Shown here one piece after another: positions 25,466 through 50,682 of a DNA stretch of 64,000 bases. The notes beneath the pieces were generated by a model. The model saw nothing but the letters and a program-made list of their open reading frames with translations, was not told the DNA's origin and searched no databases. The stretch's first letter is position 1, and each line of letters begins with the position of its first letter. Position numbers and translations under genes: made by a program. Where the stretch lies: NCBI GenBank assembly GCA_013813715.1, contig JACCRF010000178.1, positions 1-64,000 on the forward strand. The letters are read 5' to 3'. This DNA comes from Gemmatimonadaceae bacterium (GTDB lineage: Bacteria > Gemmatimonadota > Gemmatimonadetes > Gemmatimonadales > Gemmatimonadaceae).

Positions 25466-25518
25466 GACCCGGTACCCGGTGCCGGTTTACCCGGTGCCAA
25501 TTGCCGGTTACCCGTTGA
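25466..25518. repeat. class A intergenic repeat (GGTACCC/GGTGCC-rich)
   Basis: A short array of imperfect units such as CCCGGTACCCGGTGCCGG and CCCGGTGCCAATTGCCGG fills the gap between the permease and the sugar dehydrogenase. Similar arrays occur at 28172, 46838 and 59086 and within the ntrX-like gene. Confidence 0.65.
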
Positions 25519-28144: not shown

Positions 28145-28171
28145 TCCACCAAGATAGATGTTCTTCAGGCA

Positions 28172-28219
28172 CGGGGCACCACGCACCGGGTACCAGGCAC
28201 CAGGTACCGGGGGGCCGGG
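28172..28219. repeat. class A repeat in tyrS/PBP1A divergent gap
   Basis: CACGGGGCACCACGCACCGG and CAGGCACCAGGTACCGG units of the GGTACC/GGTGCC family occupy about half of the 91 bp between the divergent tyrS and PBP1A starts, so they sit within or between the two promoters. Confidence 0.65.
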
Positions 28220-43340: not shown

Positions 43341-44562
43341 CTCCTTTCGTTGTTACCGGGCGAGCCGGCAGAATGAATCGAATGCGTGTACCAGTTCCCA
43401 ACGCGCTATCGGCCTCTACGGTTCCATCATGCGCGAGCACCGCCTGCCGCGCAATCGCCAGCCCGAGGCCCGTTCCTCCCGGTTTGTGCGTCGTGTAGGG
43501 CTCCCAGATGTGCGCGAGCGTACCCGGTTCCATGCCATCTCCGTCGTCGCTCACCTCGATTCGCACGGCGTCCCTGCCACCAAGCATCGCGCGTGTCGCG
43601 CTGACGACGATGCGTCCCTTGCCGTCGCAGGCATCCACCGCGTTGAGGACAACGTTGGACAGCGCGCCGGCGAGAGCGTCGTGATGGCCCGTGAGCCGCG
43701 GGAGCCCGTCTTCCACCTGCACGTCAAGCTCGATGCCGGGCGGAACCGTCGCGGCCGCAGAATACCGGGCGAGCTCTCCGACATCTATCTCCGACGCCGG
43801 GCCGTCGGGCAGACGCCCGAATTCGGCGAAGCTCTTCGCGATGCGTTCGAGTCGCCGCGTCTCTGTCTCGAGCACGTCAATCATGTCGCTCAGCCCGTGG
43901 GGCGCGTCGCGCCTGAGGCGGGCAAGCGCGAATCGTATCGGTGTCAGTGGATTCTTCAACTCGTGGGCGACCCGCCGCGCGCTCTCGCGGTAAGCGGCGA
44001 GTCGCTCGGCTTCGGCCACGCGCTGGCGCCCAGCCTCAATCTCACCGGCCATGTCGCGCATTCGTGCGCGCAGTGTCGCGAACTCGGGTGCGCCGCGCGC
44101 GGGTTGCACCGCCGGTTCCGGTAGCCGCTCGCCACGTCCGATCATTGCGGTCCAGCGGACGATCTCATCGAGTGGGCGGCTCATCTGACGGCTGAGGTGA
44201 CCGGCAACGCGGGACGCGATGACGCCGAACACGATGAGCGCGAGCAGTGCGACGGCGAGGACGAGCCTGACCGAGCGTCCGGCAATGAAGCTGTAACGGC
44301 GTGCCTGCTCCAGCGAAGTGCGAAGTTCGCGCTCATGGTCGTCGATCCGCTGGCGTTGCGAAGGCTCCAGTGGCGCGGCGCGCGCGGCTTCGATCGCCCG
44401 CTGGCCGCTCGATGCGACACTCTCCCAGGCTGCTCTGCCGCTGACAAGTGGAAGAGCGCTGCTGACGGTGCCGCTCCAGAGCAACGTCAGCAGAGCCGTC
44501 GGCACTATCGCGAACAGCGACAGGATGACGATGAGGCGGGTGCGATACCGGAGTTGTCTCAC
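43321..44562 (-). CDS. ntrY: NtrY-like sensor histidine kinase
   Basis: 413 aa. Two transmembrane helices (LIVILSLFAIVPTALLTLLW and VRLVLAVALLALIVFGVIA) flank a short periplasmic helix region, then HAMP, and a HisKA domain with ARRVAHELKNPLTPIRFALA (H200; the E-L-K-N-P-L-T-P form is typical of NtrY/NtrB). Catalytic domain: ALSNVVLNAVDAC (N box), IEVSDDGDGMEPGTL (G1), GTGLGLAIARQAV (G2). First gene of the minus-strand operon; it would phosphorylate the NtrX-like regulator. Full-length NtrY is longer, so this is a compact version without PAS. Confidence 0.9.
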   Translation of the reverse strand: MRQLRYRTRLIVILSLFAIVPTALLTLLWSGTVSSALPLVSGRAAWESVASSGQRAIEAARAAPLEPSQRQRIDDHERELRTSLEQARRYSFIAGRSVRLVLAVALLALIVFGVIASRVAGHLSRQMSRPLDEIVRWTAMIGRGERLPEPAVQPARGAPEFATLRARMRDMAGEIEAGRQRVAEAERLAAYRESARRVAHELKNPLTPIRFALARLRRDAPHGLSDMIDVLETETRRLERIAKSFAEFGRLPDGPASEIDVGELARYSAAATVPPGIELDVQVEDGLPRLTGHHDALAGALSNVVLNAVDACDGKGRIVVSATRAMLGGRDAVRIEVSDDGDGMEPGTLAHIWEPYTTHKPGGTGLGLAIARQAVLAHDGTVEADSALGTGTRIRFILPARPVTTKGVDGNGS

Positions 44563-44886
44563 AATGCGCCTTGCTTCGCTGGTGTCCCGAGGTTTGATGG
44601 ACGGGACAAGGTCAACCGAGAACTACAAAGGTGAGAGACGCCAGAAGCATAGGTTACGAGTTGCCAGGCCGTCGCCGAGTTGCTTCATCGGCATTCCCGT
44701 ATAAATTACATGGGTTGACGCGACTTCGAGGATTCGGGGGATTGCGTGTCGCATTAGACACGGCTCTCCCTGACTGGACCTGAAGACGCGTTCCCCGCGG
44801 CACGACGCCGCGGGATCACATCCGGCTCGTGTAGTACCGCCGCACGAAGTGCGGCCTGCGACCGCGTACCACACCAACAAACATTA
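44563..44886. promoter_or_regulatory. divergent regulatory region with three leader hairpins and a 24-bp dispersed repeat
   Basis: 324 bp between the divergent ntrY-like and NYN genes. On the NYN side three perfect stems follow one another: CGTGTC/GACACG (44745-44762), CCCGCGGC/GCCGCGGG (44794-44814) and GCCGCAC-GAA-GTGCGGC (44839-44855), the last ending 31 bp before the ATG. A TATAAAT at 44700 could be a -10 element. A 24-bp repeat shared with 61252-61275 lies at 44629-44652. Confidence 0.55.
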
Positions 44887-46836
44887 ATGCCATTTCGTCC
44901 CTCTCGGACCGCGCCCCCAATGCCGCGCCGTCCGGTCGCCCCGATTCATCGCGGGCCTCAGGCAGTAACACAACATCATGCAGGTAACCACACGATCCAC
45001 CACGCGCCGAACGCAGCGCTCCTCATCGACTTCGACAACGTCACGATGGGAATCCGCTCCGATCTCCAGACGGAGCTGAAGAACCTCCTCGCTTCAGACA
45101 TCATCAAGGGAAAAGTCTCCGTCCAGCGCGCCTACGCCGACTGGAGGCGTTATCCCCAGTACATCGTTCCGCTCGCCGAGTCTTCGATCGACATGATCAT
45201 GGCGCCGGCGTACGGGTCGGCGAAGAAGAACGCGACCGACATCCGGCTTGCAATCGATGCCCTGGAGCTCGTGTTCGTGCGCCCAGAGATCGGAACTTTC
45301 ATCCTGCTCTCCGGCGACTCGGATTTCTCGAGTCTCGTCATCAAGCTCAAGGAGTACGGCAAGTACGTAATCGGCGTCGGCATTCGCGAGTCATCGAGCG
45401 ATCTGCTGGTGATGAACTGCGACGAGTACTACTCCTACAGTTCACTTGCTGGCCTCGTGAAATCGGGCGAGGAAGAAGTCCTCAAGCACGACCCATGGGA
45501 GCTCGTCACTGAAGCCGTGCAGCGCATGAAGCGCAACGGCGACGTCATGCGCGCCGACCGGCTCAAGCAGGTGATGCAGCAGATCGACAGCTCGTTCGAC
45601 GAGAAGAACGTCGGCAAATCGAAATTCTCGCTGTTCGTCTCCGAAGCGGCGAAGCGAGGCCTGCTCTCGCTCGCGAAGCTGGAGAATGGCCAGCTCGAGG
45701 TAGACGTTCCGCGCGCCGGCGCGCAACCCTCCGTTGACGGACAGGACGGCGCTCCGCTGGCCGTCATCCCACTCACGGTGCCCGCCGACGCCGCCGAGGA
45801 ATCGGATCGGGCGCGCCGCGGCCGCCGCGGCGGACGCGGCCGATCGAGGGAGCGCGACGAACGGACGCCGCGCGAGCCAACATCATCTTCGTCTCCCAGC
45901 GCGACCGATATTGCAGCGATTTCCCCCGATTCGGCCGCGGTCATGGGCACTGACGCGATGGACGTTGGCACGGCGCCACCGCGGCACAGTCGCTCACGAG
46001 ATAGCCACGCTGGTTCGTCACGCACCGGGCCTGCAAAGTCCGCTGCGGCGACTGCGGCGACTGCGGCGACTGCGGCGACTGCGGCGACTGCGGCGACTGC
46101 GGCGACTGCGGCGACTGCGGCGACTGCGCCTGACGACGGGATCGGAACCAGCGGCATCCGCCTGACTCGCGAGGAGGCGTTTGATCTCGTCCGCCGCGCC
46201 GTCGCATCGCTCGCCAAGGGTGATTCACCGGTCGCCGCGAGCAAGGTTCGCGGCGCGGCGCGTTCTCTGCTCGGGCGCGACACCGAGAGTCTGGGCGAGC
46301 GCAACTTCGTTCGCATTCTTCACGACGCGCACGATGCGGACGTCATCGACCTTCGCCGCCGCGGCGGTGACTACGAGGTCGCGGCTTCGGTGTCGGCACC
46401 ACCGGTGGAGAGTCAGCTCGAGGCGGCTGCGGTTGCAAACACGCCAGCGGCGAAACCCGTCGTGCCAACCGCACGCGGAATGTCGGCCCGGGGCACCGGG
46501 CGCGGACCGCTGGGAGCAAAGGGCGCCATGCCGGCCCATCTCCTGAGCCTCGGTGTAGTTGCGGCCAGGGTTGCACCGGCCTCCGCTGCATCGGCTCCAG
46601 TGAACCGGGGGAAGCCCGCTGAAGACGCGGACGCGGTGACGAATGCTCGCGAAGCCGCGCAGGAAGTGCCGGCGCCAGCCGCACGCAAGCGCGGCGCAGC
46701 GAAGAAGGCGAACACCGGCCCGAAGACAAAGGCGGCAGGCGAAGCGAAAGCTCCGGTTGCAAAGCGGGCGAGGACGGTGCGAAAGAAGGCAAAAAGCTCC
46801 GCCAAATCCCCGGCTGGCGCGGGCGGCGAGGGCTGA
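44887..46836 (+). CDS. NYN-domain RNase with two OST-HTH/LOTUS domains
   Basis: 649 aa. Residues about 42-190 form a NYN/PIN-like nuclease (NAALLIDFDNVTMGI with its Asp residues, NATDIRLAIDAL, TFILLSGDSDFSSLVIKLKE, GKYVIGVGI), as in LabA/MARF1-type proteins. A first OST-HTH domain is at 203-275 (DPWELVTEAVQRMKRNGDVM, ADRLKQVMQQID, FSLFVSEAAKRGLL) and a second at about 425-498 (TREEAFDLVRRAVASLAKGD, ERNFVRILHDAHDADVIDLR). Between them are an Arg/Gly stretch (RRGRRGGRGRSRERDE) and an AAT repeat tract. The C-terminal 80 residues are Lys/Ala-rich, histone-H1-like. RNA binding and cleavage are inferred from the domains. Confidence 0.88.
   Translation: MPFRPSRTAPPMPRRPVAPIHRGPQAVTQHHAGNHTIHHAPNAALLIDFDNVTMGIRSDLQTELKNLLASDIIKGKVSVQRAYADWRRYPQYIVPLAESSIDMIMAPAYGSAKKNATDIRLAIDALELVFVRPEIGTFILLSGDSDFSSLVIKLKEYGKYVIGVGIRESSSDLLVMNCDEYYSYSSLAGLVKSGEEEVLKHDPWELVTEAVQRMKRNGDVMRADRLKQVMQQIDSSFDEKNVGKSKFSLFVSEAAKRGLLSLAKLENGQLEVDVPRAGAQPSVDGQDGAPLAVIPLTVPADAAEESDRARRGRRGGRGRSRERDERTPREPTSSSSPSATDIAAISPDSAAVMGTDAMDVGTAPPRHSRSRDSHAGSSRTGPAKSAAATAATAATAATAATAATAATAATAATAPDDGIGTSGIRLTREEAFDLVRRAVASLAKGDSPVAASKVRGAARSLLGRDTESLGERNFVRILHDAHDADVIDLRRRGGDYEVAASVSAPPVESQLEAAAVANTPAAKPVVPTARGMSARGTGRGPLGAKGAMPAHLLSLGVVAARVAPASAASAPVNRGKPAEDADAVTNAREAAQEVPAPAARKRGAAKKANTGPKTKAAGEAKAPVAKRARTVRKKAKSSAKSPAGAGGEG
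46045..46125 (+). repeat. 9-bp tandem repeat, nine perfect copies, in coding sequence
   Basis: GCGGCGACT is repeated nine times without change, encoding (Ala-Ala-Thr)9 between the two OST-HTH domains of the NYN protein. Because the unit is a multiple of three, copy-number change alters linker length without a frameshift. Confidence 0.95.
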
Positions 46837-46837
46837 A

Positions 46838-46886
46838 ACGGGTACCAGGTACCAGGTACCAGGTGTCCGGTGCCAGTCGCCAGGTG
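46838..46886. repeat. class A repeat after the NYN gene
   Basis: CGGGTACCAGGTACCAGGTA and GGTGTCCGGTGCCAGTCGCC units fill the gap between the NYN stop and the Mpg start; it is the most regular of the class A arrays (three ACCAGGT steps). Confidence 0.7.
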
Positions 46887-50523: not shown

Positions 50524-50682
50524 ATGGCAGCAGCAAAGAAGGGCGGTCGCAAGGCAGCGAAGAAGGGAGCAAGGAAGAGCGCCGCGAAGAAGGGCGCACG
50601 CAAGGGCGCCGCGAAGAAGGGCGGCCGCAAAGCCGCGAAGAAGGGCGCTCGCAAAGCCGCCAAGAAGGGCGGCCGTCGGTAG
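50524..50682 (+). CDS. small Lys/Arg/Ala-rich histone-H1-like protein
   Basis: 52 aa from ATG 50524, preceded by ggagaggt. Almost the whole sequence is an AAKKG-x-RK repeat (MAAAKKGGRKAAKKGARKSA, then AKKGARKGAAKKGGRKAAKK). This composition is that of bacterial H1-like (HctA/AlgP C-terminal-like) DNA-condensing proteins, but there is no globular domain. The track ORF starts 34 codons earlier in the leader. The gene has its own promoter and a strong terminator, hence a monocistronic, probably abundant transcript. Confidence 0.8.
   Translation: MAAAKKGGRKAAKKGARKSAAKKGARKGAAKKGGRKAAKKGARKAAKKGGRR

Follow-up and report, generated by a model that had tools for sequence, protein, structure and literature searches.

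Bacterial LK-nucleases, in which a DUF88/NYN domain is combined with a single or duplicated OST-HTH domain, have already been described (Anantharaman, Zhang, Aravind 2010, PMC2848206). As described there, these proteins carry one or two OST-HTH domains after an N-terminal NYN domain, occur sporadically, lack an RNA-processing neighbourhood and are predicted to be standalone RNA degradation enzymes. In animals, MARF1 (Limkain b1) joins an NYN endoribonuclease domain, which in the human protein requires Mn2+/Mg2+, to RRMs and eight LOTUS domains (PMC6294520), while TDRD5, TDRD7 and Oskar have the LOTUS winged-helix fold in proteins with Tudor or SGNH hydrolase domains and without an NYN nuclease. 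G-quadruplex RNA is bound in vitro by LOTUS domains, also by those of bacteria (Ding 2020 as cited in PMC12247748). For control of an endoribonuclease by its own transcript, PMC10989929 describes how the level of Escherichia coli RNase E is fed back through the rne 5' UTR.

The gene analysed here lies in a 64 000-nucleotide stretch of a Gemmatimonadaceae contig, referred to below as the window, and its features are listed in Table 1. Its product resembles the LK-nucleases of the 2010 study in domain order and in the lack of RNA-processing neighbours, but differs from them in being encoded by a class-wide single-copy core gene, in a second LOTUS domain (LOTUS2) without the Ghxph motif, in an Arg/Gly-rich linker, in a helix-hairpin-helix (HhH, other orders) or Lys-rich tail (the window's family) and in a structured leader. 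A previous sequence-only reading of this DNA started from the premise that bacterial NYN proteins have just one OST-HTH domain; this premise does not hold against the 2010 study, and since duplicated OST-HTH with NYN is known in bacteria the two-LOTUS layout is not in itself new. The same reading likened the protein to MARF1 and TDRD proteins. The likeness stands for the joining of an NYN domain to several LOTUS domains, but it is generic, as a Pfam scan of the window protein found no RRM or Tudor domains, and the eight-LOTUS array of MARF1 and the SGNH hydrolase are also absent. We regard as new the core status, the HhH-to-tail exchange, the LOTUS2 motif loss and a covarying leader missing from Rfam, none of which was found described in the open-licence literature.

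Table 1. Features of the NYN-LOTUS-LOTUS locus, with positions in the window
Feature	Position	Strand	Basis or remark
-10-like TATAAAT just 5' of leader	44700..44706	+	conserved in 13 relatives
Structured leader, helices P1-P3	44712..44816	+	covariation, slide control, covariance model R1 84 bits
P1 arms	~44717-44735 with 44776-44792	+	leader alignment
P2	~44744-44763	+	leader alignment
P3	44794-44814	+	leader alignment
Hairpin P4 (GCCGCAC-GAA-GTGCGGC)	44839..44855	+	stem in window; similar hairpin folds in L001
NYN-LOTUS-LOTUS protein gene	44887..46836	+	649 aa; ORF and orthologue alignment
NYN nuclease domain, residues 43-183	45013..45435	+	PF01936 E 4.4e-24; D48, D50, D118, D144, D146 invariant
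LOTUS1 / OST-HTH, residues 201-274	45487..45708	+	PF12872 in 59/62 orthologues; AF2 winged helix
Arg/Gly-rich linker segment, residues 305-327	45799..45867	+	R/G run of at least 5 in 64/64 orthologues
9-bp tandem repeat, 9.6 perfect copies, coding (ATA)n in linker	46043..46128	+	absent from L001, L004
LOTUS2, divergent OST-HTH, residues 418-503	46138..46395	+	AF2, Foldseek, hhalign to canonical second LOTUS
Conserved motif between LOTUS2 and tail, residues 549-558	46531..46560	+	consensus PPxLLxxGVV; window PAHLLSLGVV
Lys/Ala/Pro-rich disordered tail, residues 561-649	46567..46833	+	occupies helix-hairpin-helix position of other orders

Taken together, the product is probably a housekeeping single-copy endoribonuclease of the class Gemmatimonadetes that binds structured RNA and is possibly feedback-controlled through its leader. 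A stronger version, in which a class-wide core LOTUS-NYN endoribonuclease is under tighter constraint than RNase E/G, it recognizes its own structured leader as a new cis-acting feedback element, LOTUS2 has been repurposed and the basic tail has replaced the HhH, is put forward only tentatively. The lineage offers a single-copy core gene that exceeds RNase E/G in conservation, a candidate natural RNA ligand in the form of the gene's own leader and a traceable domain replacement, so that LOTUS recognition in bacteria becomes directly testable.

Relatives were the best 80 of 352 matching places in contigs from one genome per species, nearly all of them Gemmatimonadota, and the protein alignment consisted of the window protein and 63 complete orthologues. 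One relative (L046) lies on a contig labelled Candidatus Kuenenia; its protein is 78 % identical to that of the window and the contig is most likely mis-binned Gemmatimonadota. The start codon is supported by the invariant M1 and the conserved HRGPQA at residues 21-26 of the aligned orthologues. The open reading frame and the layout previously claimed for it are real, comprising the NYN domain, LOTUS1, an R/G run, a divergent LOTUS2 and a basic tail. For the nuclease domain, the PF01936 profile was covered at positions 2-143 of 145 in the window protein, and the aspartates listed in Table 1, which we take from family knowledge to be the active-site acidic residues, did not vary in 50 aligned sequences, in agreement with the earlier assignment. 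In the AlphaFold2 (AF2) model of the whole protein, made from a shallow alignment, the NYN domain did not come out folded, probably because the alignment was too uniform.

The first LOTUS domain of the window was below the PF12872 cut-off (E 0.03), while the cut-off was passed by LOTUS1 of relatives in the class, the best of the matching orthologues reaching 2e-6. At the Ghxph site, an insert between helices 2 and 3, most orthologues have GMSKF, which fits the motif, and in the window the site reads GKSKF, K standing at the hydrophobic position. The winged helices of both LOTUS domains were predicted by AlphaFold with pLDDT mostly 90-96. PDB sequence searches with the LOTUS1 and LOTUS2 profiles returned chance matches only.

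The second LOTUS domain was less straightforward. It has no OST-HTH match in the window or in 59 close orthologues, for which Pfam gave nothing consistent, and, because PF12872 is not matched, the check proposed with the sequence-only reading goes against LOTUS2 if taken literally. The fold, however, is a winged helix also when LOTUS2 is modelled separately (mean pLDDT 80, pTM 0.69), and the top PDB match in Foldseek was the LOTUS domain of TDRD7 (TM 0.66-0.69 to target). Bacterial BVU3908, TDRD5 and Oskar were among the further matches, but the E-values were weak (0.02-0.2) and generic winged helices scored nearly as well. The second domain in other orders of the class does match PF12872, as in L094 and L096 (protein E 6e-9 and 7e-9, with the second domain as the best stretch), and a gradient was observed from canonical in those orders through intermediate in the second family of the window's order to divergent in the window's family. 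In hhalign comparisons the window-type LOTUS2 aligned with the intermediate form at 98.7 % and with the canonical form at 97.9 %, and the canonical second domain aligned with LOTUS1 at 99.1 %, whereas the direct comparison of window LOTUS2 with LOTUS1 gave just 31 %. Judged by this chain of profiles, LOTUS2 is a LOTUS domain by descent, descent being the deciding evidence beside the fold model and Foldseek. The claim of a second LOTUS domain is thus upheld in fold and ancestry and not in its profile match.

The defining Ghxph motif, as read from the alignments, is lost from LOTUS2 in the window's order: the site reads GERNF in the window and SERNF in the majority of close relatives, against GFSKF in other orders. 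A second LOTUS domain was detectable in 114/122 complete ORFs. Two of the other eight (L044 and L057) are split over two frames, and L015, L016, L017 and L147 keep NYN and LOTUS1 and seem to have lost LOTUS2.

Runs of at least five R/G residues were expected in 6.9 linkers from shuffling, compared with the full set observed (Table 1), which bears out the Arg/Gly-rich region that had been proposed. The 9-bp repeat further along the linker is likely a length-variable site. In the motif that precedes the tail, P549, L553, G556 and V558 are kept across the orthologue alignment. The tail of the window protein has a net charge of +13 over 89 aa and low pLDDT, and the orthologue mean is +12.7 (last 90 residues); by family, the mean is +13.2 in the window's family and +7.5 in the other family of the order. 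The description of the tail as histone-like is accurate as a statement of composition (Lys/Ala/Pro-rich, basic, disordered), with no H1 homology claimed.

An HhH towards the C-terminal end was present in 37/37 complete ORFs from other orders of the class (HHH_5 in Pfam, E 1e-4 in L089) and in 0/85 from the window's order. It seems, then, that the window's order has swapped a folded nucleic-acid-binding module for a disordered tail, the direction of this apparent exchange being inferred and not read from a rooted tree. We suggest that structured or G-rich RNA would be held by LOTUS1, the R/G run and the tail together, with the NYN domain cutting adjacent single-stranded RNA with Mg2+/Mn2+. Given the loss of both the LOTUS2 motif and the HhH, some of the binding to nucleic acids has probably shifted to the disordered tail.

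The gene was found exactly once in 112/121 sampled genomes of the phylum, equivalent to 112/115 of the class Gemmatimonadetes; of the nine genomes without a match, six belong to a separate class (f8) and three to this class. Identity to the window in the other orders was 66-77 % for the NYN-LOTUS1 region vs 50-66 % for the catalytic domain of RNase E/G. By these comparisons of sequence, it is a single-copy core gene of the class, under strong purifying selection and more conserved than RNase E/G. The genome from which the window derives encodes RNase E/G and RNase Y, and no match to the RNase J family was found in it (96.5 % complete). With RNase Y and RNase E/G present, the protein is not the only decay enzyme, and a role as the sole initiator of decay was rejected for this reason. 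Plasmid-borne proteobacterial NYN proteins stand at ~34 % over the NYN and LOTUS1 region, and the two that were checked contain NYN only (Pfam).

The strong hairpin leader noted earlier is better supported than the letters alone could show. RNA from the TATAAAT to the start codon had an MFE z of -4.18, and none of 200 shuffles was as low. Helices P1, P2 and P3 are common to 13 distinct sequences. P1 has a core that does not vary and that keeps a mismatch and a bulge; the letters of P2 change with its pairs kept, and one P3 pair covaries. Over all leader pairs 97.4 % of cells pair vs only 28-44 % in slid structures, a control that removes relatedness, but one applied to a structure derived from the same alignment. 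Covarying cells numbered 23 vs 7.4 +/- 2.1 in shuffles, which leave relatedness in, and 0/500 shuffles reached 23. The TATAAAT is a putative promoter element by its conservation and placement; a sigma-70 scan gave no full promoter match there. Three other readings of the leader were rejected: a terminator, as the + strand is without a terminator-like match; a known RNA family, as Rfam gave no match even at E 1; and non-conservation, as judged by perfect stems of at least 7 bp, since the alignment shows a long P1 with mismatch and bulge. The ~120 bases that lie between the start of the histidine kinase gene and the putative promoter of the leader (44557-44677) are missing in the close relatives L001, L004 and L102.

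The leader is narrowly distributed, being confined to the window's genus and a few relatives. The covariance model found one leader per genome, before this gene, in the window's genus and, as P1 alone, in one other genus; a weak match in G026 is on a different contig from the gene and is probably due to chance. In total, 16/109 distinct upstream regions contained the leader, and with the covariance model on upstream regions no full leader was detected in the rest of the family. Upstream regions of other orthologues were only mildly structured (mean z -0.87 vs 0.03 inside the ORF). The leader may control the gene in the window's close relatives.

By analogy with the rne 5' UTR, also a structured leader before an endoribonuclease gene, the protein itself might bind or cut its own leader and so exert negative feedback. 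We consider this possible, but less likely than not. The proposal is one of working alike only, as the RNA is a different one and the nuclease belongs to a different family. Such feedback would not be a general property of the gene, because the leader is missing from most of the family.

A leader that acts independently of the encoded protein is a possible alternative to feedback, though again less likely than not. The 5' stem would then stabilize the mRNA, tune translation without a Shine-Dalgarno or bind another ligand or protein. P1 starts a few bases past the -10-like element, as a protective 5' stem would, and the stretch from the leader to the ATG is unpaired and A/C-rich, with no visible Shine-Dalgarno (44870-44890). 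Against this, the near-invariant sequence of P1 with its conserved mismatch and bulge exceeds the needs of a plain protective stem.

The conserved neighbours of the gene are not RNA genes. Upstream lies a two-component pair on the opposite strand, made up of a sigma-54 response regulator and a histidine kinase; downstream, the next gene encodes a methylpurine-DNA glycosylase (adjoining in 53 loci), followed by two metabolic enzymes resembling a Kbl/Tdh pair for threonine catabolism. The neighbourhood is conserved, as had been proposed for checking, yet neither its gene content nor PADLOC, which gave no match, supports a multigene system dedicated to RNA targeting.

The glycosylase would suit a protein that acts on DNA or the nucleoid, as a NYN/PIN-like structure-specific nuclease whose HhH or Lys-rich tail binds DNA, a reading that we judge improbable. 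HhH domains and Lys/Ala-rich tails are frequent DNA binders. DNA nucleases also exist in the PIN/NYN superfamily (PMC2848206). However, studied LOTUS domains bind RNA, an R/G linker is a typical feature of proteins that bind RNA, and MARF1, the nearest NYN-LOTUS protein to have been characterized, cuts RNA (PMC6294520), all of which favour the endoribonuclease reading.

Although some conflict systems contain OST-HTH and NYN domains (PMC8195603), an anti-phage or mobile-element defence nuclease is highly improbable for a single-copy core gene with conserved neighbours, and the defence and viral readings were rejected, as no PADLOC defence model matched and viral contigs contained no relative.

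Two further observations were made elsewhere in the window. A small, very basic frame at 50524-50682 (+) (MAAAKKGGRKAAKKGARKSAAKKGARKG..., ~52 aa), with imperfect repeats, resembles a histone H1-like or nucleoid protein. Short tandem repeats containing GGTACC (GGTACCAGGTACCAGG and similar) occur at 46838-46880, 28169-28208 and 25467-25514 and are intergenic-looking.
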